A DNA stretch of 64,000 nt from Lyophyllum atratum. Its lineage: Eukaryota; Basidiomycota; Agaricomycetes; Agaricales; Lyophyllaceae. Both the position numbers and the translations under genes were made by a program. The notes below the pieces were generated by a model. It ran no database searches and was not told where the DNA came from. It was given only the letters and a program-made list of their open reading frames with translations. Below are positions 15,753-44,341 of the stretch, in pieces. Each line of letters begins with the position of its first letter. The stretch's first letter is position 1. The stretch lies in assembly GCA_014905825.1 (NCBI GenBank), contig JACGCN010000011.1, positions 806,001 through 870,000 on the forward strand. The letters run 5' to 3'.

Positions 15753-18282
15753 ATGTTAAAGAAAAGGTCAGCATTTAACTTCAAGAGCAGACTGTCTAGC
15801 GTTGACGCTTTGACCGTCACAGGTTCCAGAAGACTCCTCAGGAGGCTCCATGGGACGTCTGGAGACTTGACAAAGATTTTTTCAAAAGCCTTGCTCAGTA
15901 TACTGAAGACCATCCCGAAACTACCCTACACCGTGTGCTTGACCAAATCCGGACTGGGCTCGAGAACCATGGAAATCTCACCGATCTCATCCCAGATAAT
16001 CCATTTCCTGCTCGTGGTCTGGTTAAGGCGTTGGCTCATCTCATCATACTTGGCATCGTACGTTCTGCTGTCAATGGATTTTCCTGGTGAATCATTAATG
16101 TCATGGCAGAATGTAACTCGGGCGAAAGCAACTGTCGTTGAATTCTCGATCGAGGTCATTGACTGGGTCATCAAAATCAAGTCTGCCTTTGATTCATCTT
16201 CACGTGGGCATTTCACCTGGACAACGTGGAAAAACCTTGCGAAAATGCGGTGAGTGGGTAGTGATTCATTCTTATGACGCAAACACCAATTTCTTGCAGA
16301 GATTTGATAGATGCAATTTGTCAATGGGCGCACGCGAGATTAGCAAGTTTTCACCTCGTGATCGGTATATTCAGTACTGAGAGCTGCATCATAGCATGAT
16401 AAGCGTTGGACTTGGACTCGAATGAGAAATGGGATGAAAGTCCAGGACGAAATATTGGATTTCAACAAACGGATCATGGAAGCTAGACAGCTGTTCACAG
16501 TTAGAGCAATGTCTGAAGGATTTTTTGCAACACTGACGACATGTTTAGGACCTCAGTCTTATCAATCTTTCGGGAGGTATAGATGCCATTCTGGGCGCAA
16601 TTCGGCTTCTTCTGCAGCCCGACGATATTATCACCAAGAAAATCCAGGAAGTCCAAGAAAAGCAGAAGGAACAATTCGTGAGCAGACCCCTGTACATCCC
16701 ATATCGAATTAAAGGACTCTTTTAGGGACATATTCTCGACGTGATGGAAGAGCAAAAGCAAGCACAGGCACGGCGACAATCTTTATCCCAGAAATTTTCT
16801 TCCCGTACAGTTGCCAACCCGACATACGATGAGCAAGGCAAGCAGCCATGTGATGAAGATACCAGGACCGAGGAACTGGCAGACATCATGAATTGGGTGA
16901 ACGACGTTTCGGCAGAATCCCAGAACTTCCTTTGGCTTACGGGTGACCCGGGATGCGGAAAATCTGCTATAACAGCCTCCATTGCCCGACAATGCAAAGA
17001 CAGAAAGATCTTATGGGCCCAGTTTTTCATCAATCGAAACAATGTTGAGACTACCGATCCAAACTCGTACTTTCCCTCAATAGCTCGACAGTTTGTTAAC
17101 CACTCCATCGAACTTGAGATCGCAATCCACGATTCGCTGAAGGAAAAGCCTTCACTCATGGATCGCATCTCGCCTGATCAGGCGGCGAAATTATTTATTG
17201 ACGCCATCGGTGTTGCATCAAACTTGCACCGCGATCAGCCTGTGGTAGTCGTGATTGATGGCCTCGACGAGACAGACCGGGGGCGCCTCAAGGACACTGC
17301 GGTCATATTCTCGCACTTATTCAAAGGTCTTTCGCAGTACCCCAACGCAAAAGTTTTCATCTCGAGCCGAACTGAGGATGTAATACGAAACCCCTTTTTC
17401 TCCAATATGGAACGCGAACATGTCAAACACGTTCATCTCGACACCGCCGCTCAGTCATCTATCGACGACGTGACCGCCTTCCTGAGGAGGAAGGTAGCTC
17501 AGATCGTCGAAGAGCACGGTCTCAATTGGGAAGAATGGCCCGGCGAGGAACGGATGGCAATACTTGCTATGCGAGCCTCAGGGCTTTTTATCTGGGCGGT
17601 GACAGTGGCAAAGTTTCTCCAAGAATAGATCGACACGATGGGCACTGAATGTCTGAATGGTGTTCTCGATATGCTTAATGCTGACGCATTGGGCGATATC
17701 AATACCCTATACAGCATCATCTTCCGGATGACGTTCAAGAGCCAAGCCAGCAATTGGGAGTTCGAGAAGTTCTGTCGCATCGTGGGCGCTATTGTGGTTC
17801 TCCACGAGCCCCTATGTCTAGAAGACCTTAGCGCACTCCTCGACTTGCGACAAACTCCCACCAGCGCACCAGTTGATGTGGTGAACTTTGTCCGCCGACT
17901 TCGAACCGTACTTGTCGCAGGGACAGGCGAGATCATCAACAGCAAGACTATTCCTCGGCTTCATAAATCATTCTTCGAATTCATCACAAGTCAGCACGTA
18001 GATCCTCGTTTCCGCATTGATTCCAGGGACGCAGACGGAGACATTGCTGTCAAGTGCCTACTTCAATTCCGGAATCATGGTATGACAGGAGGTCAACCTT
18101 CGTCTGCTGGTTCCCTGCCGGGATCATTGCGATATGCATTCCGATTTTGGTCCCTACATCTGCGTGAGGCAGCGGGCACAATACCCAGCATAATAACCCA
18201 AGATACCTGCTCGCTAACGCAAACTGAACTTCATCAACTCCTACAGCGCTCTTCGAACGATGAGCGACTGCATCCTCTGCAC
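15753..18282 (+). pseudogene. NACHT-WD40 (NLR-like) gene, 5' part, interrupted by hAT element
   Basis: This is the N-terminal and NACHT part of a fungal NLR-like STAND ATPase, thought to act in non-self recognition or programmed cell death. The helical N-terminal region (LDKDFFKSLAQYTEDHPE, NPFPARGLVKALAHLIILG) is assembled from exons 15753-15766, 15823-16057, 16110-16249, a segment from 16300 and later pieces. The NACHT domain begins after about 16740: P-loop GDPGCGKSAITAS and Walker B VVVIDGLDET. An in-frame TAG at 17626-17628 interrupts FLQE|IDTMG. The frame then runs on to LHPLH, where the hAT element enters; its first three bases (TAG) form an immediate stop. The WD40 half resumes at 38277. 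The start codon is moderately supported. The gene is broken twice. Confidence 0.82.
18275..18282. repeat. 8-bp target-site duplication, left copy (CTCTGCAC)
   Basis: CTCTGCAC directly abuts the left inverted repeat at 18283 and recurs at 38269-38276 after the right inverted repeat. It fits the nTnnnnAn pattern known for hAT elements. Confidence 0.93.
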
Positions 18283-18297
18283 TAGGACTGCACACCG

Positions 18298-18465
18298 TGC
18301 CGTACAAACACGGCTATACGGTACCGTGGTACGGCTACCGTCCCCGTATCGTCGAGGATTTTGGCGCGAGCCGACGGAGACGGTAGACGGTACGGTAAAT
18401 GCCGTATTTCACCGTCAAAATACGGCCATACACGGCCGTGCACGGTTATACGGTTTGATCAATAT
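18298..18465. repeat. hAT left subterminal TACGG/CCGTA repeat array
   Basis: Multiple direct and inverted copies of TACGG, CCGTA and ACGGCC lie within about 170 bp of the left end, mirrored at 38125-38253 near the right end. Subterminal short repeats are known transposase-binding sites in hAT elements; binding here is inferred. Confidence 0.75.
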
Positions 18466-19170
18466 ATGACGTCACTGTTTGAGGGGTGAATTTTGTTCAA
18501 GTGCTCCCAAAATCGCCCCTCACGCTTACTCAGCCAATTTTCCCGGGCCTGACCATGTGCTCAGCCACTGCAAAGTTAAAGTTTGCAGTATGCGTGAGAA
18601 TGCGCTGAGTTGAACTGCCGTTGTCAACAGTCCAAGCAACGCTCACATGCGACCACAACGCGGTAATCGTCGATCATAGATATTGCGCAGCCCGATCCTC
18701 AATCTGCGTTGAAGATACCTACCGCAGAATGTGTTTTAAGAAACCTTCCGACCTTTATCATCACTTTCGGTGAGTTGGCATATCCATGGACTTCTTTGTT
18801 TCTTTTTCCTTTCTCTCCGTTCCATGCCTGTTGTAGCACCACTGCGGCAGTGCGGGAATTTGTTATTCCAATGCTGACACCGAGTTTCAGGTCTTTTTCA
18901 AATATATGCTCCTCATGCACCTCTCCAACCCTCCCCTCGCTACCCGCTATTCTTGCCGACCTGAGCCGTGCGCTCTCATGTTGCTAGTAATTTACTTTTT
19001 TGTCAGAAATTGTGCACCATGTGAACAGCGCGTTTGAGACTGCGAAAGCGCATGGGCAATAGACCTGTGGATAGCATCATATCAACTCGAAAAAACAGTA
19101 TTTAATGGCTAAGGTCTGTCGGTTGAGTTGGAGTTGTCATCGAGACTCATCCTGCCGTTTTAGTTTCAGC
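18466..19170. other. hAT 5' non-coding region
   Basis: Between the subterminal repeats and the transposase start. No protein-like ORF was seen; it presumably contains the transposase promoter. Confidence 0.45.
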
Positions 19171-22100
19171 ATGTCAGAACAGTGTGCTGTCCATGAAGAC
19201 GGCACTCTGAAAGATGCCTCGGAAATTGACTGGCAGTACGACCCGGATAGCAACATCCAAGATCCTGCAAAGTCCAAGCCAGCACCCGAAGGTATGTCTT
19301 ATCCTTTTACGAGACCAATATCCAAGGTATAACCCGCTTACTGGTATATTCTAGGCCGTCCGCGTCGCGATAAGAAGACTGATAAATACAATGCTGCACT
19401 TGCTGATCAGCATCTGGACGAGTGGGGCAAATCTATCATCCCTAGAACTAACCGTGTTTCTCGCCCACGTCAGCCCAAGCGCAAGCGGGACTCGGAGGAT
19501 GCATCACCAGCAGCAGCTGACAGAAATGACGATGAGGACAGCGAGGATGCCACGTTTTCCGCATCCCAACAATCCAGCGACGATGAATCGGAGCGTGACT
19601 CTGATCTGGCAGAGATAACCAATGACGAGGTAAGATCCAGGGTTTCCGTCCACTGAGTGACGGCCATGTCTAATAACTTATTACTGCACAGCTTGCCGAC
19701 ATGTTACCATCGAAAACAGTGCCCGTTGCAGCCAACCCCAAGAAGCCCACTACGCGAAAGTCAAGCAAGAAGTTCAACACGAACCCGACTGCGCCACGCG
19801 CTAAGAAATCTCGTACTGCCATGGTGGAGGAGATCGAGGACGAGGATAGTCCTCGTAATATAGCTGTGAGGCAGCCGCAGTTCGGGGGTGATAGGGATCC
19901 TCAACCTGCCAAGTCGGGCATCCGTAAGCCAGGTCAGGAGAAGGTATGTGGCTAAATTCATATTCTACTTCTCGACTCAATTTCCTGTAGCGAAATCCCA
20001 TCTACCTGTTCTACGAGCAAGTCACTCGAGATGCCCACGGGAAAAGCGAATCCGGCAGCAAGTATTACAAGTGTTATCACGGCAATCGGAAGACTCTGGT
20101 GATCACAAAGGCGATGAAAGGCAATCTCAATGGTATGTCCTTGTTAACAGACCTCGTCTCTGACTTGATTGTTATTACTTCAGGCCTTATGGGGCATCTC
20201 AAGCACTTCCCTTCCATGGAGCACCTCTATCAGGTTCTCAAGAGCCGCTCTGAGCCTCCGACACCGAACGAGATCGCAATCGCATCGGGTAAATCACCGC
20301 TGGACCCAAAGGCCGAAGCCGAATACCTCCGCCAGCTAGAGACAGCTTCAGAAAACATACAGCGAGCGTTTGAAAAACAGAAAGCTGAAGCTGCGGTACA
20401 TCGATTGCTATTTGTATTGAACTTTACTTACAATATTTTTTAAGGGTCCCTGGGACCAAGAGAAATTCGAGCACCTTATTGCTGAATGGATCGTCGCCTG
20501 CGATCAGCCATTCGAAGAAGTCGAGAGGCCGGAATTCGTTGACATGATGACCTACGCACACCATCCCGCCCCCGAAATCAAGATACCCGGGCGAAACGCG
20601 ATTCGGCGACGGGTTATGAACATGGGTGAAGACACAGTCGAGGGTATCAGAAAGATGTTTGAGGTAAGTGGTTTGATTATGACCACAATTGTTACTGAAT
20701 AAACCCGTAGGAGCTTGAGGGGAAGGTGTCCCTATCACTTGATGCATGGACTTCGAGTAATCAGCACGCATTCTTGGCCATTGTTGCCCATTATGTAACA
20801 AACGAAGGAGAGCTAGGTACATATTTACTCTGATACCTGTCGTCGAGGCTTATCTTTTATTATAGAAGAATTACTTATCGACTTTTGTGAACTCGTCGGC
20901 GAGCATTCAGGAGAGAACATGGCAGAAGCGGTCTGGGGTACAATGAAGCTATATGGGCTCATCGGCCGGGTACATTTATACCCTTTGAGTCACAAACCTT
21001 CTCGTACATATCATACTGGTCTTCAAGGTCATTGCGTTCGTGATGGACAATGCCACCAACAACGACACTATGGTTGCCAGCATCGAGAATCTCTGTCGTG
21101 AGAATGCTATTCCGTTCTCTGCCTCTGACGCACGCATGCGATGCATGCTGCACACGGTTCACCTCTCTGCACTCAAGGTAGGCTTCAACTTCAGTCGTTG
21201 AGATCTTCAAGTTCTAATCTTGGTGGTCATAGTTACTTCAAGCTATTGGTGCAATCTCCAAGGCTGAGAAGAGGAAAGCGGCATCTCGCAGTGGACACTA
21301 CCAAGAGGAGGTTGCTGTTCCCCTTGATCGCGAGGCGGATGATCGTGCTGTATCCCAGCAGGACGATAACGGCGATGCTGCTGCTGAAGGTGGTGCTCCT
21401 GATGGGATGGCGGCCGAGATCCTGTCGGCGTTTGTGAAGGTAAGCTACATTTAGCAGAACAGATGATAATTGTCCGAACTTTTGATACAGCTACGCGCTG
21501 TTGTTCGAGCAGTTCGCTCAAGCCCGCAACGTCGCCAAACCTGGTACCGGGAGATCCAGCTTACAATGAACAAGGATGACGATGACAAGAGCCCAGCTTT
21601 GATGCTGATCCTTGATGTCCGGACCCGATGGTCGTCTACACACCAGATGCTATGTAAGTTGAAGTGTGCCATGCTCCGACTGTTCTTGAACGTTTTAGCA
21701 GGCCGCGCCCTTGATTATCGTGATGCAATCGATGTCTTTGTTTCAAGGCATCGAGAGCTTCGCGCTTATGAGCTGTCTGAGTCAGACTGGGACTCTCTCG
21801 TGCTAGTCGCCGAGTGGCTCAAATGAGTCAAATCATTCCGTGCCGCCACCACACAGATGTCAGCAACAAAGACGCCTATGGTCTCAACGACTCACGCCAT
21901 CTTCCGTGGTCTACAAGATGACCTAAAGACCATTCTTCGTGATTTACCCGCCGGTGTCGCTCCAGAAATCAAACAAGGCCTTACGGATGCTCACGGCAAA
22001 TTGAGTGACTACTACACCAAGTTTGACGAGTCTCCTTTCTATACATGGTCAGCATGTGAGTATGTTTGTTATATTTGGCTTTCGCCATTCGCTAATCATC

Positions 22101-22607
22101 CCTCCTGACAGTGCTCGATCCTAGAATTTCATATCAATGCATGAAAGAAGATTATGCGGATGATGTGTCTCTTACTCGATACCTAGAACACTCGAAGGCC
22201 AATTTGCACGAATATTTCAAGACTCACTATGCCGACAAACATTCAACACCATCACAGCTATCTGTCCCACTTCCTGCTCCTTCTGCCACTTCATCTTCGC
22301 ATTCACCGCAGAAGAACTTCGTCGCCCGTTACAAAAGGAAGGCCAGGGCTATAGGTGACGAGCTGGAGGAGTATTTCAAACTCACACAAGAACCAGCAGA
22401 CTTCGAGAGGTGTAATCCAATACATTGGTGGACGGGGCACCGTGACCAATTTCCAAACCTTTTCTGGCTCGCGCGGGACATTCTTGCGATTCCTGGTAAG
22501 CATGAATAATTCAACTCGCCATCTTTTCTTGTCTCATACGGTCATCTATATAGGCTCTGCTGTCGCGGTAGAGAGAGTGTTTTCGGGAGGCCGTGATACA
22601 ATATCCC
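19171..22607 (+). pseudogene. hAT transposase, 5' part (interrupted)
   Basis: A multi-exon hAT-family transposase starts at ATG 19171 (MSEQCAVHEDG). A Lys/Asp/Glu-rich N-terminus precedes a BED-like segment (KYYKCYHGNRKTL, GHLKHFPSMEHLY). The RNase H-fold core follows: SLDAWTSSNQHAFLAIVAHYV (first Asp), AFVMDNATNND (second Asp), then LDVRTRWSSTHQML. The C-terminal dimerisation region begins AVAVERVFSGGRDTIS and is cut at 22607 by the KDZ-type element. Its last residues are encoded at 37933-38051. An in-frame TGA at 21824-21826 (EWLK|VKSFRAAT) also breaks the frame; related proteins read through here, so it is likely a decay mutation. Introns are short and frequent. Confidence 0.85.
22601..22607. 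repeat. 7-bp target-site duplication of the nested element (ATATCCC), left copy
   Basis: ATATCCC at 22601-22607 recurs at 37926-37932. Joining across one copy gives GATACAATATCCCTGCGTCG, restoring the transposase frame GRDTIS-LRRAS. Confidence 0.9.
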
Positions 22608-22689
22608 CAGGCGTAGCAGCGTGTATCATATATCAGATGACCACAGTCGTAAAACTTTTGGTGATGCATCAATGTCTACAATGTCTATT

Positions 22690-23805
22690 AAGGAAGGTGA
22701 TATATCATGCCCTTCGTGATATATCACGCCCTTGAAAGCTGCTGTAGGGCTCGGCACACCTCGGCATGTCCTCATTCCCGGCAATTGCCCGTCCATGCCA
22801 CCTGCTGTTGATTTCACACGATATTTTTACAGTGTCCGCCTCCATGCTGGCGCTCCCTCATTCCCAATTGGGCTGCATTTGAAATATACCCCGCCTCTCG
22901 GCTATTTTGGGATCCTTGGCCACGTCGGTGCGATCCAGCGGGATTTCCAAAACCGGTCCTTCCCAATTAGGCTGTATTTCCAATACACTGCGCGCTTGGA
23001 CAGGGCCGTGAGACACGGCGGGATCTCCATCTATGGATGCCACTTCTATGCGGATGCGCACCCCACCCCGCTCTCGCAGCTCATCCCCACCCCACCCCGC
23101 TCTCGCAGCTCATCATGTAGTCACGGCCATATGTACTCCCGCCACGGTCCGCCATTCACTCGTGACTCTACGCCCTTCTATGTACCCCGCCACCCCGCTG
23201 ATCCTCTCCCACCTACTCCTCTTTCCTCCTCCGTGCTCCAGGTCCCCCATGAACATTTCCCTCCTCCGCATTCCTCCCTGAACGCTCGTCAAATTTCCCA
23301 CCGACCCCTCTTTGGGCCCTTCTCCACTCCCCGGCTCCCCATGAATGTTTGCCTCCAGCACGTTTGAACTCGATGATACCAACATACCATTGTAAGTAGT
23401 GTTATATCACTTTCTTGTTGCTAGCCTATCTCACATATCCCTGTATCGCCTCTATTGTCCGTGATATATCACCTCTGTATGGTGAAACTGGTGATATATC
23501 ACCTCTGTAGTGACTTCCAGGGTGCTCTATGGGTGATATATCACCTGTAGCAAAGTTCTGGTGCGCTATGTCTCCAGTTGTAGCAGGTGATACATCATCT
23601 AACGTTTGACTCCGGTGATATATCACCTATAGCAAAGTTTTTACGTGCTATGCCTTCAGTTGTAGCAGGTAATATATCATCCACACATTCCCTCCCACCT
23701 GTAGCGAAGTTTTACCATACTATGTCTTCAGTTGTAGAAGGTCATATATCATCTACATACTCTCGAAATCTCGTAAGTTCTCTGCAACATGTTATATCAC
23801 GCATT
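22690..23805. repeat. Array of GGTGATATATCACC palindromes and GC-rich spacer at KDZ left end
   Basis: Perfect or near copies of GTGATATATCAC occur near 22693, 22714, 23462, 23492, 23534 and 23614, with diverged forms near 23587, 23672, 23741 and 23790. From about 23549 they sit in three diverged units of about 75-80 bp (TAGCAAAGTT...TCAGTTGTAGCAGG). More copies occur at about 26783, 26819, 33172, 37832 and 37899, all inside the same element. The GC-rich stretch 22740-23390 also contains a duplicated segment (CCCAATTGGGCTG near 22864; CCCAATTAGGCTG near 22971). No gene is seen here. Confidence 0.75.
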
Positions 23806-23961
23806 GTAACTGTTATCTGAAGACCTGAATAAGAGTTTATTTGCAAGGTAACATATGTATTCAGGACATGTATATAGACTGTACTTTAGAACGACTAAGT
23901 CGTCTTACCCCTGCAGAATTGTTGTAAGCCCGCCCCGTGTCTACAGAATAACGGAGATCAC

Positions 23962-26734
23962 TCACTTCTTCTTGGACGAAGCGCCGGCCGAACCAGCAGC
24001 TTTCCGCTTTGAGGAGCCAGCAGCAGCACGTGCTGCAGCAGCCTCTCCTGGAAGTGGTCTTGCGATGCCATCCATATCTCGAGCGGGTTTGATAACACGC
24101 TTCGCACGCGATGGGAGGCCAACAGTGTCGGTCGGGTCTTCTTCAGCTGGGTTAGGTGACGTGGTCTTTGGGGCGTTCGCGGTAGCATCGGCAACATTGT
24201 TCGTGGTATCGATATGGTGATCCGGTCCACGACTGGGCGGCTGAACCTGATCCGGGCCAGCCGAGGCAGGGCTTGAGCTTACCCCGTCCGTCCCTATGTT
24301 CTTCTTCCCACCTCGACCACCACCTCGACCTCCACCTCGACCTCCACGTCCACGTCCAGCCCCATGTCCACGTCCGCCCCCACGTCCACGTCCGCTTCCA
24401 ATCTCCACTCCAACCTTGGTCACTGGTAACGCAGGTCGGGTGATAGGGAAGCCCGTGTCTCCGCGATCGACAGGTCCGAGTGCAGCCTGTTCAAGTTCAT
24501 CCAGCTCAGCCAATTGCACACTTGAAGGAGCAGGATCCGGCAGCGCAGGGGCTGGAGCAGACGGAATGGATAAGCCCGCGAAGATGGGATGAAGTAGCGT
24601 TGAGGCCATTTGATGGTGGTTGGACATCGGAGTGTTCATATGGAATGGAAATGGTGGTGCCTGCTGAAGTGACTGATCAGGGAGAAAGAAGTTGTGGAAT
24701 TCGCTTGTCGATGGCGAATTTGGAAGGGGTGCTGGGTGTGTCCCGAAAAAGTTCATCGGCACCGGTAGCATAGTAGAACTCTGATACATCGGAATAGGAG
24801 GGGGAAGGGGGACCGGAGGTTGAAGAGTGGTCATCGAGTGGGCTGGGTGGGCTCTGTTCAGCTGCTCAGTGATGGTCTCGTAATCAGACAGGGAATCCGA
24901 GAACAATTCGTTGCTGAACGAGAAGCCATCGACTGTGGAGAAAGGAACGGCAGGATGCGCTACGCCTTGTGCATGTGTGCTGTGCGTCGTGGTGGGTGTG
25001 ATGAGCGACGGATTGCCGACTGTTTCTGATGGCACGGGTATACTGGTTGTCGATGTCGCCTCGGGATCCCCTATCTGATCTGAATCCAATGTGAAATCAT
25101 GGTCAAAAATAGACCATTGATCCGCACCGCCCGATAGAGATTCTGAAGTAGCTGTGGTAGTGTCCACGTCGGCCTGAGAGGCGAAAGGATCTGAGATCGG
25201 TTCAGCGATTCCAGCCCTGGAGTTATGCTTCGGAGTCGACGGAGTCGAAGTGGCTGAACCCGTGTTTGAAGTCGATGACACGTCGGAAGGCTTTGAAATC
25301 GGTCCAGGGATATCAGCAGTGGAGGTGCGGTCCGGAGTCGATGAGGTACGGTTCGGAGTCGATGATTCTTCATCATTCTTGTCAAAGGCGATCAACAAAT
25401 TTGACGGATCAGCGATCCGCTCATTGCTCTCAGAGCCGGATAAACCTCGGCGTCCATGAATACCGTGCTTCGCTAATAAAAGGATTGAGGCTTTTGTTTC
25501 ATCCAAGCAGAAAGACTAGTCAACTTACGATAAACCTCTCTTAACCACCCAGTGTAAGACTCGTCAAAAGCAAGCTTGTCTGCCTTGTATTTGATAGGGT
25601 AGCTTTTGTTGTCTTGATTGGTACCATAACTGACGCTGAATTCGCGCGTAAGTGGACTTCAATATAAACAACGACAAAGAACTGACGTCTGCAATCTAAT
25701 CTTCTCCTTTTGCGACGGATCGGGCCCACCTGCGACTATCACCGTCGACCATCCTGTAAGTCGGTGGATCTCTTCGCAGACGGCTTCCATAAGAGTTATT
25801 TGGTGCGCAATCGCACTATCAAGGGTTCGTTAACATGTTTAGCAGGTCTCTAATGTGAAACTTAGACTTACAATTTGCGCTGTTCAGGGGTGCGTTCCAG
25901 GCCTTCCTTTTTCCCTTCAAGCATCGCCGCCTTCTGGTTCTTCTCCTCTTCCAGGGCCAGCCGTACGACCTCCTTGACTTCCTCTGTTTCCGCTAACCAT
26001 GCCTTCCGAACCACCTCATGCCTCGTCGTGAGAAACAATGAAGCACGCGACTTCCTGCCGCCCGTAACCTCGCCTTCACCGTCGCCTTCCCCTTCATCCT
26101 CGCCTTCACCCTCACCCTCACCCTCGCCCTCACCATCATCGTCGTATTCGCCTTCGCCCTCGACATCTCCACGGCCCTTTCCCTTACTACCCTCTCCACC
26201 GGTCCTGCCAAGCGCCTCATTGATAAGTAAGTTTACTTTTTCCTTGTACTTGATCTGATACATTTCCTCTGCCTTGTGTAAACGCGTCCGCGAGCCTTTC
26301 AGCAGGGAGAGCATCTGACCGGTGCTTTTTCGCCGAGCGGTGCCTTGGGTCCCGGTAACCCTCTTTTCGGAATTTCTGAACCAACTTCTCAGTTGCTGTC
26401 ATTCGGATGTGAGTTAGTGAGTTTTCAATTTGTTATAAGGAGTGCTCACTTTTTGACGTGTGATAACAGCATCCTTCCAAATTTTTTCCAGCTCGTCACT
26501 CCACGAGTTGGAATCGTCAGCCCTAACCGCCCCCTCTGGGATCTTCCCGGCCGCAATACAAGCATCCAATTCCGTCCATTGTTGGAACCAGTCCCGGTTC
26601 ACGTCATTGAAGAACTTTCCAAGCCCCCTGTTCTTACCATCATTTTGCTTCGCTGTATACACCACAAGGTAAGTACTCAGCCTCTCTTCTAGCCATTGAA
26701 GCTGATCAGTAGATGCCCAGTGTCGAGGAGCCAT
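23962..26734 (-). CDS. KDZ-element accessory protein with homeodomain-like helix-turn-helix N-terminus
   Basis: Exon 1 (MAPRHWASTDQLQWLEERL..., start 26734) joins through a 45-bp-scale intron to QLRSWFRNSEKR, a helix resembling the recognition helix of homeodomains. Next are MYQIKYKEKVNLLINEAL, an acidic Glu-Gly repeat (EGEGEGEGEGEDEGEG), VVRKAWLAETEEVKEVV, a region including MEAVCEEIHRLTGWSTVIVAGGPDP, and a long Ser/Thr/Pro-rich tail. The tail ends in RGG/GRG repeats and a basic SSKRKAAGSAGASSKKK segment. I do not know a formal family name. A clear relative with the same domain order is encoded at 56748-58953. A DNA-binding role at element ends is inference. Inner exon limits are approximate. 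Confidence 0.75.
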
Positions 26735-27516: not shown

Positions 27517-27658
27517 GAGGGTTAACAAGAATTTGTAATTTAGTAAGTCCTTACTGAATCTGTAACATCGATCGAGATGGTTCACAATGCGTGATCAATT
27601 TGGGTGGTATATATAGATATCATGTCCAGTTTTCAAACTTACGCCCTTCAACATACCC

Positions 27659-29690: not shown

Positions 29691-30008
29691 AAGGTGTAAC
29701 CATACTGCCGCAACCATAGACAGTTTCTGATACTTAGGCGGCCTAAGCGAGTTATGATAGAGATAAACACCGAGTTTGTGATAGGTTTCTCATAGAAATG
29801 CGACGATAAGATGAGATAAGATAAGATTGTCAGCCTGCCCTGAACATGATTGCGACCGGACCGATTGTGCAAGTCGGATCTGGACCTTATCTCTCCCCGT
29901 CTCCCCTCTTCCGCGCCGATGACCCTGTTCCGTCTCACCGCCCCCTAGCCCCCTAGCCATCTCACTGCTCCCTAGACAGGCCCGTGCTCTCAAACTCCCG
30001 CTCTTGGC

Positions 30009-30183
30009 TATAAAATGGCAGCGCCTTTGGATATGGCGCACTTCGAAACCTTTCCTCCGAAATTCCCTCTGGTGAGTGAGACCGTGCATTGGGACTCGCC
30101 ATAGGCCCTACGGCGGTTTTACTTTCCTTTATCGCACTGCGCCCGTACATTGGGACTTGCCACAGGCCCTACGGCGGGTGTAT
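30009..30183 (+). promoter_or_regulatory. TATA box and 30-bp direct repeats upstream of the Tet/JBP-like gene
   Basis: TATAAAA at 30009-30015 lies about 260 bp before the ATG. Downstream, CATTGGGACTCGCCATAGGC (from about 30086) and CATTGGGACTTGCCACAGGC (from about 30148), each followed by CCTACGGCGG, form a near-perfect 30-bp repeat 62 bp apart. Inference: leader or promoter elements of the dioxygenase gene. Confidence 0.5.
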
Positions 30184-30276
30184 GTGCTGATCCGCCTCCT
30201 CTTTGCATCATCTTTTGCTGGGTACCTTATACTGACTCATTTATCCCTCGCACTAGATCATATCATCGCTCTAACA

Positions 30277-32037
30277 ATGCCTCACGGTCAGGTAAGGCAC
30301 AAACTCTTTCTTTCATGGTCAGATATGCTGACCATGGTCTAGACCCGCTCAGGAGCCTCGTTCTCGGCGTATGACTTCGCACCCTATCGGGTTTCCGCCG
30401 TCACCAGCCCCACCCTTCACCACGGCCCTCCCGTCCGTATCTCTGATAGCTTTGACACCCTGATGCATGGGGCCATGCTCCAGGAACCCGCCGATGGCGA
30501 CGATGCTGAAGGCGCACCCCTCACAGACGGCCCAACATTCTCCCACGAAGGTCTTGACATTCATCACCCTTCCACCACCTCTGTTCACGTACATCCCAAC
30601 ACGCGTGCTGGTACCATCGAAGCTCAACGTCAGTCAATGAACAAGAAAGTCCAGCGCAGCAAGAAACGGACGTTTGCGGCGGTGTCCGCAACTCCTTTCA
30701 GCCGCCCAGTCCGCACCTCAAAATCCGCCAAAGCCCAACTGTTTTCGGCACCGCTCAAGGCCGGGATCAATGCGGCAACACTTCCGAACACCAAGGGAGG
30801 GGCATGGACAGGGTTTTTCAGACAGAAGGGAAAACGGGGGAAGGGTCAGAGGGGGAAGAAGGGGAAGAAGGGGAAGATGGGGAAGACGGTGATTCCGCGG
30901 AAGCCAGATGAGCTGCAGGACTTGTTGGATGCAGGGTTCGGTCTGGTGGAGTGGGACGGAAGGTACGTGTGCAGGTCTCCGTTCACTTTCCTATGCTCAA
31001 ACCTTTCTTGTAGGACGCCTTTCTCGATTGTCGATGACCAGGGACGCGCCATCGCAGGCTTTCCTGGATGCCCTGAAGATGATCATTGGGACGACGTCAT
31101 CTCGGGAGCCACCTCTGCGATGGAAGATGCCCGGGAACACGCAATCAGGACAGATGCGATCAACGAGGACGACGTGAACCACCGTCGGGGCAATTTTGCC
31201 GCCTTCGCGACAGGAGTATCTTACGGAGGGGGCCAGACGGTACGTGCTCCATGTGGTCCATGCGCTTCCGAACGCATTGACGGAAATCTTCTAGAAACCT
31301 GGCAACCTTGTTCACAGTGGTCCATGCGGCCGCTTGGTTCGGCGTCTCCTTTCCGACCGCAACATCCGTCGCATCGCGGGCTTTCAATCAAGTACGCGTG
31401 ATTCATCCCCCCCTCCCCTCATCGGAGACGATTCCCCCTCCCCATCTCGGTCCCCCTCCCCTATTCTATGCTAAGACAACACTCTTCAGGCACGTTCGCT
31501 TCCTTCGCCCCCAAGTTGTACAATTATTATGCGGACATCCTCCAGTCGCTCTTCCAACACCATCCCAATCTCGAACACAATTTCAATAATTCAATCTTTC
31601 CAGCCTGCACCTTCAACTGTGGTCCTCATACTTGCACCTGTCGTCACGTTGACGCAGGTAATCTCTGTTATGGTCTCTGTGCCCTCACCGCAATGGGTTC
31701 GTACAACTCTAAGCGTGGTGGACACCTTATTCTATATTCTCTGAAACTCGTCGTCGAGTTTCCCCCTGGCTCCACCGCTCTTATCCCTTCGGGTGCTGTT
31801 GAACACGGCAACACCCCTGTTGGCCCCGACGAAACACGGCTATCACTCACTCAATATGCTGCGGGTGGTCTCTTTCGCTGGGTCTCGTATCATTTCCAAA
31901 CAGTCGCTTCCTTCATTTCCACCCGCGCCGGCATTGCAGAGAAGGCGGAGATCGATGCTGGTCGGTGGGAGAAGGGGTTGGACATGTTCACGAAGGTTGG
32001 GAGGGTTGGGGCTCGTCGTATTGTAATCCATCGTTAG
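30277..32037 (+). CDS. Tet/JBP-like 2OG-Fe(II) dioxygenase carried by KDZ element
   Basis: Fungal Tet/JBP enzymes oxidise 5-methylcytosine in DNA using 2-oxoglutarate, O2 and Fe(II). Exon 1 is 15 nt (MPHGQ, 30277-30291), exon 2 starts at 30343; further introns follow WDGR, GGGQ and GFQS-like text. The N-terminus is disordered with a strongly basic GKGQRGKKGKKGKMGK segment. The catalytic half shows NFAAFATGVSYGGGQ, then SIFPACTFNCGPHTCTCRH, the HxD pair (RHVDAGN), GGHLILYSLKLVVEFPPGS, the distal His (SGAVEHGNTP) and the 2OG-binding Arg (DETRLSLTQYAAGGLFRW). All expected ligands are visible and the frame is intact. Location in a KDZ element fits the published association of fungal Tet/JBP genes with KDZ transposons. 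Confidence 0.85.
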
Positions 32038-32181
32038 TTACCATCGGACAATTTGTTATACTCTTTTTGAAATATGCCTTCGCCTTTTTCCAATCAGTTT
32101 ATTAAGAAGGCGAAATTCATAATAATAGTGAACCATATGGTGTAAGGTACGTCATGATTAGGTGCTGTGCATGTGCCGTGG

Positions 32182-32579
32182 CTAAGCTCGACTTCCAGAT
32201 TTAGATTTACGCCCCTGTCCCCATCCCTCTGCTAAGATCTCTTTCCTCCAATCTGCCGTGTGCGTCATTCCCGTTTGTCCGACGGTAAAGTCCATATGAT
32301 CCTCCCATGCTAACATCAGGCACAGATAACATATCAGTCCTTCGACTCCATGCTGGTCAATGAAACGGCTCCAGTATGCGGGGGGACCTTGTGAACATAG
32401 CTCGTTCACGTCAACATCTACCCAGATATGACGCGATCGTGTGCGGCGGTTACTGTTCTGTGAGATGGACAGAGGACCGGGGCGACAAAAGCGGCAGCGC
32501 ATCATTCCTAGCAGCTGGTCAGTTTCGGCCGGCGCTCAATGTTCGCGGTATTACCTTCAGGCGCTTGTGATTCTGCCAT
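32182..32579 (-). CDS. Small two-CxxC protein 2 in KDZ element
   Basis: A 25-nt first exon (MAESQAPE, start 32579) joins through an intron (GTAATA...GCTAG) to GMMRCRFCRPGPLS, then SRHIWVDVDVNELC, YWSRFIDQHGVEGLICYLC and a basic end (GQGRKSKSGSRA). CRFC and CYLC, about 55 residues apart, are a likely Zn2+ pair. The layout matches the other two CxxC genes, but the sequence is divergent. No named family is recognised. Confidence 0.55.
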
Positions 32580-32669
32580 GCGTGAGTCAGGGGGGTTGGT
32601 CTTTGGTGAGTTAGAAGCGCTGCAACGGTATCATTCTAATATACATTTTTGCAGATCATCGGGTACGGA

Positions 32670-33142
32670 TTAACTTTCATCGGCCTCCCATCCGTCACTG
32701 TGTTTCCACCCGACCGGTTTCTCCAGTTCCGGCCACCACGCATCTATTATGCGCAACCCTCTGAATGTCTCCTTTCCCTCGTCGATCAGTGCCTCAATAC
32801 AGGCCCTACAGACGACGCGGCGCCTTTGCGTGGTCCAGTCCTCCCATTCCACAGTTTCCTCCCCCTCCTTCAAGCGATCCCGCAATGCTTTTGCCGGAAA
32901 CAGGGCCCATCCCTTCGCGACCTTCGGTTGCCCGCAGAAATCGCAATTCCGCTCTATCTTCAGCCGATCCAGCTCATCCACGACGCTTTCCACCGAGACC
33001 TCTTCCTCCTTCCCTACCTCTGCATCAGATTTCGTTTCTTGACGTTTAAAAGTTATGACTGTGAGTGCCAGCACTGTTACAATGCACAATGTGACTCACC
33101 TTCTATGGCAGGGGTGCGCTTCTCAATTGCTTGCTTAGCCAT
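32670..33142 (-). CDS. Small two-CxxC protein 3 in KDZ element
   Basis: Exon 1 gives MAKQAIEKRTPAIE (start 33142). A short intron (GTGAGT...CACAG) leads into VITFKRQETKSDAEVGKEEE, then NCDFCGQPKVAKGWALFPAK and, after about 40 residues, VVCRACIEALIDEGKETF, ending WEADES. CDFC and CRAC form a likely zinc site. CDFC and GW..FPAK are shared with the 27659-28344 gene. It lies only 153 bp from the divergent KDZ transposase start, so the two may share a promoter. Confidence 0.6.
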
Positions 33143-33295
33143 GCTGTAAGTGGGGACGGATTTCAAGCTGTGATATATCACCGACAGATACTTGCACCTT
33201 ATTATAACCGAGACCTTCGGCTAATTCGACAATCTGTGATTCAATCGAAATTATCTCGTGCACGCACCCGGTATCTCGGGCCTCCTATTCCACGC

Positions 33296-36200
33296 ATGAA
33301 GCGCCCCAAAGTTCAGTCTGTGGTGTACCCGGATACCAGCGATGAGGACGAGGACGATGACCCACGGCCTCGAAAAACCCTATTCCACCATACGACCTCT
33401 GTCATTTCTAATGGAGGGACAAGAACTACAACCGGCACCGTTGCTGGAGCCGCTTCCCCGAAGAAAAGCTCGACTACTCCATCGAAAGTTCGCGGTGTCG
33501 GGAACATAGGGGTCTCGTCTTTGGAGGATATGTTGGAAGGCTTCGAGTTTATGCAACCAGGGTATTGGGATGGATGGGACCAAGAACATGGCTTGCAGAC
33601 AAAACAGCGTACCCGCTCAGCATTAGTACGTGTCCTTATAGGTGTTGAACATTCCTTAGACTGATATCTTCACAGGACACTCCAAATCCAATGAAAACGT
33701 GGGTAGACTTAGATCGCCAAGTATTTCTCGACGAGTTCCTTCGCCTTGAAGGGCGGGGTGAATATACAAATACTTGTTGCCCTTGTGGTCAGCCCCTGCC
33801 CGCTAAATACCGCTGTGTCGACTGTCTCCCTGGTCCGCTCTTATGTGCTCCCTGTATGGTGTTATTGCATGCACGTAATCCTTTCCACCGCATTGAGGTA
33901 TGCTTTTTTTCTTCTCGCGTGTTAAACTAAATGCTAATGCGTACTTAGCAATGGAATGGTTTTTTCTTCGAAGACGAAACTTTGAAGAAGCTGGGGCTTC
34001 GCATACAATTGAACCATCCGCCAGGTCAACGTTGCCTTAACCCGAAACCCGCAAAAGGTGACGACTTTGTGGTTGTCGACTCATACGGCATTCATGAAGT
34101 GGGCTTGGATTTCTGCAAATGCGAGCAAGCCATCGACGACCCCCTCCAGCTTTTGAGGGCTCGCCTTTATCCGTCGACCGCAACTCAACCACAAACAGCG
34201 ACAACATTCAACTGCCTCAAACACTTTCAGCTTCTTTCCTTCGAGTCGAAATGTTCCGCCTATGAGTTTTTCGGTGCCATATCCCGAGAGACCGATAACA
34301 CCGGTCTGTACGTACCTCGAGTATGTCATTCTCCTTACATCAGAATCCCGAGCTCAATTTTCTCAAAAATAGGATCGATATGATGAGTTCATGTGGATGG
34401 TCCGTCAATGGCGTCACCTGAAGATGCTGAAACGCGCTGCCATTGGGAACGAACCGGACGGCATTATCGCGACAAGACCGGGTCAATGTGCGGTGTCATG
34501 TCCTGCATGCCCACAACCCGGTATCAACCTCCCACCAAACTGGGAAATGGCGCCGGAAGACAAAAAGTAAATTTTACTTGTCATGAACTCACTCAATGCT
34601 GATCTGTCTATTTCTAGATATCTTTATGCGCTATTCATAGGGATGGATGCCAATTTTCGGCTCAAGCGGAAGATCGTATCATCCGACAAACGTGATCCTA
34701 GTCTAGGGGGAGGTTGGGCATTTTTTGTCGAAGAAACCGGTTACAAGGACTATCTTAAGGCGCGTTGGGATCAGAAGCAAGATGTATGTCGCCTGTTTTT
34801 ATTACACTATACATATCTGAATAAAGCCCTCACCAGCGAAGTGACTGTGTGTCGCACGATGCGGTGAACAAACCAGATCGAGAGGCCCGGGGTCTAGCAG
34901 CATCAGGCGCGGGAACTATCGATTGCTCGCGCCATGATTTCAAACGGCCACTCGGGGTCGGCGATTTACAGAAAGGAGAAAGGTAAGTCTTGCACCTGTG
35001 CGTCAGAATCAGTCACCTGAACCGAGCCCTAGATACTTGAATATGGACTACCTTTTTTTCAGTAGTCTTCGCGACACAAATATCCAAACAATCGTAGTAT
35101 CCTACGATATCGTATGCCAATGGCACAAAAAGCTACGTGAGCGAATGCTAAGCTACCCACATGAAATTCACCTCTCGGGTAGCGTGAAATACATGTCCTT
35201 CCTCGTCCCAAAATTTCATCTACCTGCCCATATCGAGGATTGCAACATCCTGTATTCATTCAACCTGGTGAAGGGCGTCGGGAGGACAGACGGGGAAGCG
35301 CCTGAACGTGGGTGGGCCAACATCAACCCAATCGCACAAAGCACAAAGGAAATGGGTCCAGGGGCACGACGCGACACCCTCGACGATCACTTCAACGACT
35401 GGAACTGGAAAAAGGTTATTCAATTTGGTGCGTTGCTATGTCTATTGATTCATTCTGGCATTTATTGATGTGAAGTAAAAGGCTCGCGTTTGCTAACGAA
35501 GCTGAAAGAAGCGGCACCTGCACGAGTCGAGTATGCGACCGCGTTGAGGGATCTTGAGAACAGCATCCCGCCCCAGGTTTTCAAATTATGGGGCGACGCG
35601 GTCGACTTATGGGAGAGGGATTCTTGGAAACCGGAGCCGCCAGCGAATCCTTATAGATCGAACAGCAAAGGTATTTGTTCCCTCCTGATACTTGTACCCT
35701 TCAATCGCTGATGCTGTCCTTAGTGATGTCAGAGCGCGACGTGCGGTTGAAGCTCGCGCAGGAGGTGGCAGTGAAGGAAGGGTTGAACGATCAGAACTCG
35801 GAGCATGTCCACGATCATCATCCGACAGTCATGATCGCAAACGGTCTCGCATTGGCAGATGAGCAGTATGTGATATCCATCTTATTCTGGCGACTATGAT
35901 AGCTAAGCTGCCCCCCTGATCAGACACAAGTTAGCTGCTGATACCGCAGATCTGGGTGATCATCCGACAGCCAACCAGCTCTCAAGTCTTCTCGAGCGCT
36001 CCAATCAACTTCGGCGCAAGATATCATCGTGGATAGAGATCCAAATGCTATTTCTTCCAGAGGCGGCGAGGCAGCGAGCTAAAGCGATGCAGAACGTGGG
36101 TCCGGACGGCTTACCTGCTACAAAAGCCCACGATATCCCGTTATGGCTTCCTTCCGACCTAAAGAAGGAGGGAATCGTGGTCAGTGAGGCGCTGCAAGAG

Positions 36201-36943
36201 TACGAATGGAGGTTGAGAGAAGGACAGGCAAATGACGCACTGGAGGAGGTTCGACGCATCTTACGACTACGTTCTCACCTTTATACTCACAAAGATCGAT
36301 ACTCACGCGGAGTCAAAGCAAATACCCGCTCCAACGTAGCCATTGGTACAGCGAACGAGGCCGTCAGAAGGGCTGCAAATAAATACCGCAAAGCACGCCA
36401 AGCACTGGTCGTACTTTCCCAGGGACGACAAACACCAGTCTGGGAGACCACGATCCGGGTACTGAGGGATACGGATATCCGAGCATTGTCGGAGGGAATG
36501 TTCGGTGAGACGGAGGGGAGCAAGACTACGTCCTGGATCTGGTCGGCTCCAGGGGTGGTTGCCGTGAATGATGAGGATCCCCAGCTGAACGATGGTGAGC
36601 GCTTGATGATGTGGCCGTTGCGGAGGTACTAAAACAAGCTTTAGGTTTACGGATCGAATGGTGTCGCGCCAGAGCTAGGGCAATGAGGTGGGCTGAAGAA
36701 GTCGAGCTACTGCAGGAGGAAATGCGTCGGGTACTGGCAACCCTCTCATGGAAAGCTGGATGGTGGCTGGAGCAGCGGTGTCGGAGGATGGGCCTGGATT
36801 CCATGACCATGGAAGGTGTTGCTGCGTATTCTCAGCAGCAGGCGGCTCTCGCACTAAAGCTTAAATACCGGTTTCAGGCTCACTGGGCGGAGGTCCCCTT
36901 AATTCTACAACGCTGGGAGCCATGTGATGATAAGGACGAATAA
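33296..36943 (+). CDS. KDZ (Kyakuja-Dileera-Zisupton) transposase with N-terminal cysteine cluster
   Basis: The DDE-type KDZ transposase is presumably the mobility enzyme of the 15.3-kb element. After a disordered N-terminus comes a CxC2-like cysteine cluster (CCPCGQPLPAKYRCVDC, LCAPCMVLLHARNPFHRIEQW). Next are LGLRIQLNHPPGQRC, FNCLKHFQLLSFESK, the catalytic-type GMDANFRLKRK and SYDIVCQWHKKL segments, then GEAPERGWANINPIAQSTKEM and DTLDDHFNDWNW. A long helical C-terminal region ends CDDKDE. Many short introns are needed, including one at 36595-36645 with a TACTAAAAC branch site. All inspected joins stay open, so the gene looks intact. Confidence 0.87.
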
Positions 36944-37300
36944 ATGTTGTCTCTCTGACCGTAGAAATGATGGCAAATGAGTGTTATTAATAGAAAGAGT
37001 TGGAAGTGATACGGCAGGGCAAAATGATGGCGGCGAAGGGAAATGATGGCGGCGAGAGGGGGCGATGATGGCGGGGCGGGGTGATGGCGGACAGAATGAT
37101 GGCGGATGATTCTGGCGGGATGATAGGACTATTTATAAATCTGCGGGCCATGATGGCGGGGAGGGGTGGACAGAATGATGGCGGATGATTCTGGGCGGGA
37201 TGATGGGACTATTTATAAATATACATAGGTGGGATGGGCGGCGGCAATGTGGGAGGGACAGCTGAGCTTGAATTGAGGTGGCTGAGGTGGATGAGCTGTT
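36944..37300. repeat. GATGGCGG-rich repeats at KDZ right end
   Basis: Frequent ATGATGGCGG motifs lie from about 37022. A segment of about 60 bp (ACAGAATGATGGCGGATGATTCTGG...GGACTATTTATAAAT) occurs twice, near 37091 and 37169. No ORF of protein character is present. Confidence 0.65.
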
Positions 37301-37303
37301 GTA

Positions 37304-37822
37304 CTGTAGTATTCCGACCGAGTGTTCACAGGGTGTGACGCGTGACCTATAGTGTTCATTGGGCTAACTGTTCACGAGTAGGGATGATCCGTGACGAGGT
37401 TGAAAGTGTTCATTTCTGCAGAAGTGTTCACATTGTCTTTCTAAGGACTACGTAGCGTAGTGTCAGCCTGAATATGGATTAAGATTTCCAGGCATTCAGG
37501 TAGTTGAAAAATCAATAATTGATATGTGATATAATGATCATTGATCAGCATTGATAAGTGATTCAAAAACATTAGCCTGGTGAGCACTGAGCTGGTGGTG
37601 CAATGAATAATCTAGCAGAATCCTGCCTCACATGTTCTGTCTGCTCTTCACAGTCCCTAGGAGGGTGCATTTTGTAGTAGCGCCTGCAGCCCGAAAAAAA
37701 TCCTTTTTTGTCTTAATTTTACAAGTGTTCACGGCTGACCGTGAGCCGTGACAGGTAGCAAAAGTGTTCAGTTCACGACCCTCCGTGATGCGTGACCTGA
37801 ACACTCGGTCGAAATACTACAG
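37304..37822. mobile_element. Probable 519-bp MITE flanked by TA, nested in the KDZ element
   Basis: The left end CTGTAGTATTCCGACCGAGTG (continuing TTCA) and the right end read in reverse complement (CTGTAGTATTTCGACCGAGTG) match at 24 of 25 positions. TA dinucleotides flank both sides (37302-37303 and 37823-37824). The interior has repeated GTGTTCA motifs and no coding capacity. TA target choice and size suggest a Tc1/mariner-type MITE; the superfamily is inference. Confidence 0.75.
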
Positions 37823-37925
37823 TAATACGTGATATATCATGTTTGTCTCATATTGTAGGGTTTGATACATGACCAAAAGTTATACAATTGAGGTATATGA
37901 TATATCACTCTGCTAGGGAGTGGTG

Positions 37926-37932
37926 ATATCCC
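37926..37932. repeat. 7-bp target-site duplication of the nested element (ATATCCC), right copy
   Basis: Partner of 22601-22607, immediately followed by the resumed hAT transposase frame (LRRASLHPDTIR). Confidence 0.9.
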
Positions 37933-38051
37933 TGCGTCGTGCTAGCTTACACCCTGACACAATCAGGGTTCTAATGTTGGTAAAGAAGAAGCTACACCTT
38001 GCGCGCGCAAAGGCTAACGCAGCGCTGCGTGAGTCCTACACATTCAAATAG
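37933..38051 (+). pseudogene. hAT transposase, 3' end
   Basis: Encodes LRRASLHPDTIRVLMLVKKK followed by LHLARAKANAALRESYTFK and TAG at 38049-38051. This is the end of the hAT C-terminal dimerisation domain and continues in phase from GRDTIS at 22606 once the nested element is removed. A GTGAGT inside CTGCGTGAGTCC could alternatively be a donor site. Confidence 0.88.
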
Positions 38052-38124
38052 CTGTAGTACCTCCTTGTATGCTCTTCTCTCCCGTAGCATTAGCACACTT
38101 ATACCACGCCGTCATACCGTACTG

Positions 38125-38253
38125 CCGTTTAACGGCCGTATACATCGCCGTACCGTACCGTCAGGGAGTTTGTCGCTGCTTTATACGGACGGTACACGGT
38201 GGGCCGTATACCGTACATGGCCGTATTTTATACGGCCGTCACCGTAATACGGA
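38125..38253. repeat. hAT right subterminal TACGG/CCGTA repeat array
   Basis: Mirrors the left-end array with many CCGTA, TACGG and ACGGCC motifs before the right inverted repeat (38254-38268). An ATG at 38217-38219 is in frame with the downstream WD40 coding sequence. Confidence 0.75.
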
Positions 38254-38268
38254 CGGTGTGCAGTCCTA

Positions 38269-39851
38269 CTCTGCACGTTACCCTATCTCAGGATAAAACT
38301 CGATTTCTTACGTCCTCTGGAGATCATACCCGACACTGGGATGCGGCAAATGGCTCGGAAATTGACCCCGCCATCCGCAGTGGTCACACCGAACGTGTTT
38401 CATCAGTTGCCTTTTCCTCAGATAGCCAGCAGCTCGTTTCAGGGTCTTTTGACAAGACTCTGAAAACATGGAGCATGGAGACCGGTCGTGCTCTTGCGAC
38501 GTTCGTGGGCCACGATGGACCTATTCGTTGCGTCAAATTTTCTCCGACTATGAAGGAAATTGTGTCATGTTCGGACGACTCTACCATTCGAGTCTGGAAC
38601 GCACATACCTCTCAGCTCATCACAACGTTGACCGGCCACACAGGAGCCGTCCAGTCCATCTCAATTTCTCCCAACGGAATGCAGATTGCATCTGGGTCAG
38701 ACGACAAGACTGTGTGTCTTTGGGATTGGAAAGGTAATCTCGTTGGCTGGAACATGACAGGTCATTTGGCACCTGTAACATACGTGACGTACTCGCCCGA
38801 TGGAAAATCGGTGGCCTCTGCTTCTGAGGACGGGACAGTTCATTTCTGGGACGCGCGACGACACTGCCCCACCAAAAGGCAATATTTAGCGCCTCAAGGC
38901 GAGCCTTCCGTCACTATCTCACCGACATGGAAGTACCTTGCTTTCGAATTTGATGACCAGTATGGAATCGAACCCCAGGCTTGCGTGTGGAATCTGCAAA
39001 CAATGGCGTGTGTGGCAACATTCGACTATCTTCGACACGGCATATCTAAGGCACCTGGATTGCCCATGTCATTTTCGGTAGATGAAAGATTTTTGATTCT
39101 GGGTTGTGGGGACAATTCTCTCCATGGCCTAGAAATACTTTCCGGCAGGACCGTCACTTTCCCTTCCGCTGGTCACAAAGACTCAATAACGTCTGTTTCT
39201 GTTTCACCGGACGGACGCCATATTGCGTCGGGCTCTGCGGATACGACCATCCGTCTATGGGACATGCCGACTAGGGCGGACCCGGTCGATGACGAGGCGT
39301 GGGGAATGTTTACGAGTTTTTCGCCCGATGGAAAGCTTGTCGTGTCCGCCTCTTCCAGCACCACACTTCGTCTGTGGAATTCAAGTAGTTTTTCGCCAGA
39401 TGGAAAGCTTGTCGTGTCCGCCACACTTCGTCTGTGGAATTCAAGGAGCCACGTACGTGACAGCCAGGTGCTCGATGGCCAGGCTGGTCAGATGAGGTTT
39501 ATCGCCTTTGATCCAACTGGATCTCGCATCGCTGGAGTGTCCTTTGAAAGCGCTATCTATCTCTGGGATGTGAGAACCTGCCGACTAATAGCATCCTCCG
39601 TCGCAGATCATATATCTCAACCCATTTCCATATCTTTCACAGCTGGTGGCCAACGTCTCGTTGTGAGATACAGCAACGCGCCTTTGACCATCTGGGAGGA
39701 GAATCACGGGAAAATACTTGAGGCTAGTGGCGCTCTGTGGATGGGATCCCTTTCTGATGGCATTCAGCCTAACTTCAATCTGGGCATAAGTCGGGATCGG
39801 AGGCAGGCGTCATATCAGAGGCGTATGCTGGTACATTGGAGGATCAAATGA
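38269..39851 (+). pseudogene. NACHT-WD40 (NLR-like) gene, 3' WD40 part
   Basis: Starts with the target-site copy CTCTGCAC, then VTLSQDKTRFLTSSGDHTRH in the same phase as LHPLH at the left side of the hAT element. At least seven WD40-type units follow, for example GHTERVSSVAFSSDSQQLVS, GHDGPIRCVKFSPTMKEIVS, GHTGAVQSISISPNGMQIAS and GHKDSITSVSVSPDGRHIAS, each followed by a WD-like dipeptide. A 72-bp segment (39315-39386) is repeated as 60 bp (39387-39446), making an extra partial SFSPDGKLVVSA blade. Known role: WD40 repeats of fungal NLRs sense ligands. The stop is TGA at 39849. No frameshift was seen in this half. Confidence 0.85.

Positions 39852-41003: not shown

Positions 41004-44341
<3,338 letters not shown>

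Follow-up and report, generated by a model that had tools for sequence, protein, structure and literature searches.

Cut-and-paste insertions nested three deep in an NLR-like gene of Lyophyllum atratum, with a possible TET/JBP-like dioxygenase gene as cargo

Introduction

Nested transposons are common, and a nest as such is ordinary; NLR-like genes broken by transposons are likewise a known kind. The locus described here lies in a 64,000-nt stretch of the basidiomycete Lyophyllum atratum (GenBank assembly GCA_014905825.1, contig JACGCN010000011.1, positions 806,001 to 870,000), hereinafter designated the window, and contains a NACHT-WD40 NLR-like gene, a hAT transposon, a KDZ element, and a miniature inverted-repeat transposable element (MITE), each inserted in the one named before it. 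The gene is presumably comparable to fungal NACHT-WD40 genes of the het-e/het-d type, and we take the MITE, by class name, to be of Tc1/mariner-pogo type. Coordinates without a contig prefix are window positions.

KDZ elements that carry TET genes are a known kind, as the available portion of PMC12730594 describes. In the same portion, AG-type enzymes are marked by Gly or Ser where CcTet has Gly331 and by Asp where it has Asp337, 5 and 11 residues past His326, and PE-type TET/JBP enzymes have HxE (PMC12730594). Asn at the position of CcTet Gly331 is the state of human TET2, according to the available portion of PMC11040006. Among the matches listed on Zisupton, CcTET/Coprinopsis, Kyakuja, and KDZ transposons (titles and abstract starts), no publication concerns this locus. 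The new part is possibly a further dioxygenase lineage.

Results

Three insertions, one inside another

Very probably, one of two haplotypes carries a NACHT-WD40 gene split by a three-deep nest of cut-and-paste insertions. The KDZ element certainly entered the hAT copy of the window, and the MITE certainly entered its KDZ copy. A first-pass annotation of the window had named the four units NLR-like gene, hAT, KDZ, and MITE, and these names are correct by Pfam matches, by the lengths of the target-site duplications (TSDs), and by sites that lack the insertions (empty sites).

The hAT element (18283–38268, plus strand) spans 19,986 bp including the nested insertions. It has short terminal inverted repeats (TIRs), with TAGGACTGCACACCG found at both ends, and is flanked by an exact 8-bp TSD, CTCTGCAC, at 18275–18282 and 38269–38276. 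Contig C46 carries the empty site predicted at 18282/38269. Specifically, C46 matches the window from 13751 (the edge of the fetched sequence) to 18282 with 97.7% identity and then runs straight on at 38269, with a single CTCTGCAC. The join of LHPLH to VTLSQD, proposed as a frame-exact rejoining of the gene, is read continuously in the C46 allele.

The transposase gene of the hAT element is split by the KDZ insertion. Its 5' part (19171–22607, plus strand), open reading frame (ORF) pieces that include the start, also contains an apparent in-frame stop at 21824–21826, while the C-terminus (37933–38060, plus strand) is in frame with 22553–22607 after one TSD copy is dropped. The second proposed rejoining, GRDTIS to LRRAS, is thus frame-exact as well: the Dimer_Tnp_hAT match (PF05699) grows from profile positions 1–45 of 84 (E 4.4e-8) before the join to 1–83 of 84 (E 2.6e-18) on the rejoined piece. 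This C-terminal dimerisation domain and the 8-bp TSD, present twice in the window and once in C46, place the element in the hAT superfamily.

The KDZ element (22608–37925, plus strand) is 15,318 bp long, or 14,797 bp with the MITE and one TA removed. It is flanked by an exact 7-bp TSD, ATATCCC, at 22601–22607 and 37926–37932, as the first-pass annotation had reported. The element begins with CAGGCG and ends with GTGGTG, and immediately internal to these termini is an imperfect inverted repeat of 43 nt (79%). Three other copies (C141:513466, C141:1120070, and C72:463910) begin at the same base on the left, and the one other copy read on the right ends at the same base. The copy at C141:513466, the sister element, has 6 mismatches in 1858 aligned columns at its left end and 1 in 856 and 0 in 104 columns at its right end, in a comparison that covers the ends and not the middle and leaves gaps (48 columns in all) uncounted. 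It has a 7-bp TSD of its own, ATTAGAG, and a single uninterrupted ATTAGAG is present in two copies of the surrounding sequence, on C101 and at another place on C141. The remaining two copies (C141 and C72) have a nearly identical left flank.

A KDZ transposase domain (PF18758, E 3e-66) together with CxC2 defines the element as KDZ; the 7-bp TSDs (ATATCCC and, independently, ATTAGAG) and the 5'-CA..TG-3' ends, as in Laccaria Kyakuja, point to the Kyakuja type. The nesting of KDZ in hAT, as read from sequence, rests on the 7-bp TSD, on ends common to other KDZ copies, and on the restored hAT domain. The empty site proposed at 22607/37926 was not found in the assembly.

The ends of the KDZ element are rich in a palindrome, TGATATATCA. 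With at most one mismatch it occurs at 17 sites in the element, against 0.55 expected, and exactly at 9, against 0.05 expected (20 first-order simulations each). Twelve of the 17 sites fall in the first 1.2 kb, as a left subterminal cluster (22626–23800); of the others, two are in the last 100 bp (37830 and 37898) and three are internal. The 44 kb of the window outside the hAT element contain 2 sites. The palindromes may constitute the binding motif of the transposase.

The MITE (37304–37822, 519 bp) has TA on both sides (37302–37824 with the flanking TA) and 27-nt inverted ends that are 96% complementary, TA included. Its three full-length siblings show 4, 5, and 9 mismatches, with 8–9 gap columns besides, and each is flanked by TA. 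The empty site predicted at 37303/37823 is present in the sister KDZ element (L058), which joins window 37303 to 37822 with a single TA. A 4.65-kb element that shares its ends with the MITE, C67:795022-799669, encodes a DDE_1 protein, and only its outer 130–150 bp per side align with the MITE, at 90–91%. This relative is likely the transposase source for the MITE. The TA TSD, the inverted ends, and ends common to a transposase-coding element are the features of a Tc1/mariner-pogo MITE.

The interrupted gene and its second allele

The 5' part of the NLR-like gene (16726–18282, plus strand) encodes a NACHT/NPHP3_N ATPase domain (PF24883, E 4.9e-25; PF05729, E 2.7e-7) and a linker, and no Pfam family was found in the linker (17629–18285). 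The 3' part (38277–39848, plus strand) encodes WD40 repeats (PF00400, six stretches, E 7.3e-65, on ORF 38133–39848) and is collinear with C46 except for an insert that C46 has of its own. A NACHT-type ATPase followed by a repeat domain defines the gene as NLR-like. Upstream exons, out to about 15753, lie outside the gene model; the single ORF examined in that region (15678–16250) has no Pfam match, including any to an N-terminal effector domain.

The two haplotype alleles are broken by different insertions. In that same WD40 exon, the C46 allele has a hAT-like insert of 1801 bp (L056 4654–6454, C46:116654-118454), with TSD GATAGCCA and ends TAGTGTTGTGC, in which no frame longer than 140 aa was found. 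Because of this separate insert, no intact allele of the receptor-like gene was found in the assembly. The window allele has, in addition, an in-frame stop at 17626–17628 that the C46 allele lacks. The first-pass annotation missed this stop, the different insertion in C46, and a TET/JBP-like gene in the KDZ element.

C46 is most simply the second haplotype, collinear with the window and with an empty hAT site, because probe order, copy number, and corrected spacing all agree. In the assembly (64.8 Mb, 151 contigs), the window belongs to contig C13. Probes at window 2200, 17700, and 43400 have matches on C13 and C46 whose order and spacing agree (C46:100423, 115922, and 123427); those at 2200 and 43400 match nothing else, and that at 17700 has one extra distant match, at 67%. 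The two contigs are collinear at window 2200, 13751–18282, 38269–40970, and 43400. The distance from 2200 to 43400 is 41,200 bp, or 21,206 bp once the hAT nest and one TSD are subtracted; the C46 counterpart spans 23,004 bp, or 21,195 bp once its own insert and TSD are subtracted.

A right-flank probe at 59000 was dropped as uninformative, as it lies within a repeat resembling a long terminal repeat (LTR), and 43400–44700 was used instead. About 163 bp at window 59000 recur at 63119–63281 (99%) and also on C64 and C67 (96–99%), and 59000–63281 is probably a full LTR retrotransposon.

A candidate dioxygenase in the KDZ element

The KDZ gene at 30277–32037 (plus strand; ~501 aa, hand-adjusted model) possibly encodes a divergent TET/JBP-like 2-oxoglutarate (2OG)-Fe(II) dioxygenase with HxD..H..R kept. 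In an alignment of the window exon with six relatives, the only other exons read out of 57 loci and picked for spread, H-x-D, the second H, and R are kept in 7/7. A profile of this family matches a profile of the genome's own Tet_JBP genes in hhalign (93%, E 2.9e-7), whereas the control, one comparison with a two-sequence NACHT profile, gives 2% and E 0.021. The Tet_JBP profile was built from four genes (profile A2; of 18 Pfam Tet_JBP places, five were read and L074 was omitted), and it finds CcTet (E 1.5e-20) and Naegleria Tet (E 6.6e-5). The HxD..H..R core thereby aligns with known TET enzymes by way of an intermediate profile.

Several results speak against the TET/JBP assignment. Pfam Tet_JBP (PF12851) matches ORF 31402–32034 with E 1.1e-4, at 21.9 bits against a cut-off of 34.9, and at E <= 0.01 the 501-aa model matches none of the Pfam families. 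Searches of the PDB by the dioxygenase sequence and by the family profile gave 0 matches, and a single-sequence fold failed (pLDDT 35). The 181-aa exon matches only 2OG-FeII_Oxy_3 (E 0.06), with no Tet_JBP match at E <= 0.1. Across the family, weak Tet_JBP matches occur in 3 of the 7 members (best E 6.9e-5), all below the cut-off.

The enzyme has the hallmark of neither described type. Asn and Cys occupy the positions of Gly331 and Asp337 in all seven sequences read, in a stretch that is gap-free in hhalign, instead of the AG residues, and all seven have HxD instead of the HxE of the PE type. Among the genome's Tet_JBP genes, L070 and L072 have Ser/Asp and L071 has Gly/Asp, which is the AG pattern, while L073 and L074 have Asp/Ala and Asp/Val.

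Relatives of the gene adjoin KDZ genes across the genome. We counted 57 dioxygenase loci (98 exon matches clustered and merged at 6 kb; 86 of 132 first-look candidates scored) and 62 KDZ loci (109 exon matches, likewise merged at 6 kb), with alleles on both assembled haplotypes counted separately. For 21 of the 57, a KDZ locus is no more than 5 kb away, where random placement predicts 0.54 such cases; the other 36 have none so near. The 18 loci found with Pfam Tet_JBP (14 above the cut-off) include 4 within 15 kb of a KDZ locus and none within 10 kb. These distances support linkage as cargo for the window's dioxygenase family in particular.

Three Tet_JBP genes (C63:138365, C46:630085, and C130:257188) sit 10–14 kb from weakly scoring KDZ matches. 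The only one of these three to be read, L071, has AG residues. The genome possibly holds a second, AG-type TET+ KDZ family.

Other features of the nest

The KDZ transposase gene (33296–36943, plus strand; 11 exons, 1041 aa) has a stop-free spliced model with CxC2 (PF18803, E 1.5e-41) in addition to the KDZ domain. A cargo gene on the minus strand (23965–26734, ~851 aa) has no confident domain; its only match, TrAA12, scores 25.9 bits against a cut-off of 30.9 and lies over an acidic repetitive stretch. The smaller cargo genes are known as gene models, namely one with CxxC pairs (27659–28341, plus strand; no Pfam match for 27952–28341) and one or more with zinc-ribbon-like CxxC pairs (32182–33100, minus strand; no Pfam match), and no Pfam match was found in any of four smaller cargo frames. 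A tandem-like array of 140–160-bp units occupies 28809–29700, inside the KDZ element between cargo genes. An Rfam scan gave 0 matches, and no viral contigs were confirmed.

The sister KDZ element (L057 1831–3000) adjoins a ~100-bp stretch that recurs ~4.4 kb away, an arrangement seen at three similar genomic places, and the sister is therefore probably nested in another repeat.

A second hAT copy, at C64:3279720, is incomplete, being 98.9% identical over 3353 bp with the match ending at the equivalent of 21633. It was rejected as an intact KDZ-free copy because of this end, a CxC6 ORF beyond it, and its place near the contig end. At the break (L010 3667–4707), sequence with the CxC6 (KDZ-associated) ORF adjoins hAT, perhaps as another KDZ-type insertion within hAT.

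Discussion

The first-pass annotation took the sequence to show the order of events directly. The part of this claim that stands is that KDZ went into hAT and the MITE into KDZ. Nesting shows the entry of one element into another, and the order of arrival at the locus is thus left unproven, as a composite may have moved whole. Arrival in the order NLR-like gene, hAT, KDZ, MITE is the simplest reading.

An alternative with the same nesting is that the composite formed elsewhere: KDZ, with or without the MITE, would have entered hAT at another locus, and the resulting ~20-kb hAT would later have jumped into the NLR-like gene in trans. The hAT ends are intact, so that the loaded element could be mobilised by another hAT transposase. 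We consider this improbable, since a 20-kb hAT would have to be mobilised in trans and no other copy with such a load was seen; at full length and high identity, the 3' stretch of hAT is present once. Divergence fits, though it does not prove, an earlier date for the hAT insertion than for that of KDZ: 7 substitutions in ~2.8 kb separate the two closest KDZ copies, and 35 in 3353 bp the two hAT copies.

Some points count against stepwise insertion into one of two haplotypes. None of the hAT copies found in the assembly has its KDZ target uninterrupted, the closest, on C64, stopping short at 21633, and the hAT 3' coding end, used as a query, gave no other copy but a 75-bp piece at 76%. All three units are repeats, and the nest is read from assembled contigs. 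The case for C46 as an allele, as opposed to a large segmental duplication, is built on collinearity and copy number. Repeats collapsed or chimerically joined by mis-assembly could give an apparent nest. This is highly unlikely, as a duplication typical of the class is present at every boundary, where a chimera is not expected to make matching TSDs, other copies stop at identical bases in other contexts, and two of the three levels have uninterrupted counterparts. Chance TSDs as the cause of the joins were likewise rejected, since uninterrupted sites exist for hAT, the MITE, and the sister KDZ. If C46 were instead a paralogous segmental duplication, the insertions might be fixed rather than heterozygous, and the assembly comes with neither phasing nor a stated ploidy. 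We regard a duplication as quite unlikely, because two of the flank probes are specific to C13 and C46, the third has just the one 67% match besides, and order and spacing agree over ~41 kb; moreover, the KDZ copies on C141 and C72, with their nearly identical left flanks, likewise resemble a haplotype pair.

Under stepwise nesting, a hAT transposase would have inserted the hAT element. The KDZ element would have inserted itself through the CxC2-KDZ transposase that it encodes, which probably binds the TGATATATCA palindromes close to the element's ends, and the DDE_1 transposase of the longer relative with matching ends would have mobilised the MITE in trans. Each inner insertion breaks or burdens the element that it entered. 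The TET/JBP-like dioxygenase, if it acts on DNA, would most likely oxidise 5-methylcytosine (5mC) on the element and relieve silencing, a step on which we are evenly divided. More tentatively still, and with our judgement leaning against it, we propose that the TET/JBP-like genes in this fungus's KDZ elements form an additional lineage beside AG and PE, with HxDxxN and Cys in place of the AG Asp, at ~57 loci, and here as the cargo of an element polymorphic between haplotypes. For an active enzyme, the Asn would predict a conventional 5mC oxidase, not a CcTet-like dual 5mC/N6-methyladenine (6mA) enzyme, used by the transposon against silencing.

Two of the three levels, and the length of the KDZ duplication, are verified by natural uninterrupted sites within one assembly, and one receptor-like gene bears independent disruptions in both haplotypes. 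The middle element brings in a divergent, putative TET/JBP-like enzyme whose relatives adjoin KDZ genes across the genome. A loaded and an empty haplotype site, together with a candidate anti-silencing gene, make a direct test of TET self-demethylation by transposons possible.

The window gene resembles fungal NACHT-WD40 NLR-like genes in having NACHT/NPHP3_N followed by WD40 repeats, but both of its haplotype alleles are disrupted, and one upstream ORF shows no effector domain. The hAT element shares the 8-bp TSD, the short TIRs beginning TAGGACTGCACACCG, and the Dimer_Tnp_hAT C-terminus with its superfamily, whereas KDZ splits the window copy, which also has an apparent in-frame stop. The MITE resembles Tc1/mariner-pogo-type MITEs in its TA TSD, inverted ends, and longer DDE_1-encoding relative with matching ends; it aligns with that relative at the outer parts only, and a simple internal deletion of it is unsupported.

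The closest described elements are the TET+ Kyakuja of Agaricomycetes (Kojima 2025, PMC12730594), which, in the available portion of that report, likewise combine a KDZ transposase and a TET/JBP-type gene in one element and have a 7-bp TSD and 5'-CA..TG-3' ends. For two Laccaria Kyakuja families the same portion reports no TIRs, whereas the window element has an imperfect subterminal inverted repeat (PMC12730594). The AG enzymes described there have Gly/Ser and Asp where the window dioxygenase has Asn and Cys (PMC12730594). With CcTet of Coprinopsis cinerea, as presented in the available portion of PMC11040006, the putative dioxygenase would share a distant kinship by way of the genome's AG-like genes: HxD, the second H, and R align, but Asn and Cys stand in for Gly331 and Asp337.

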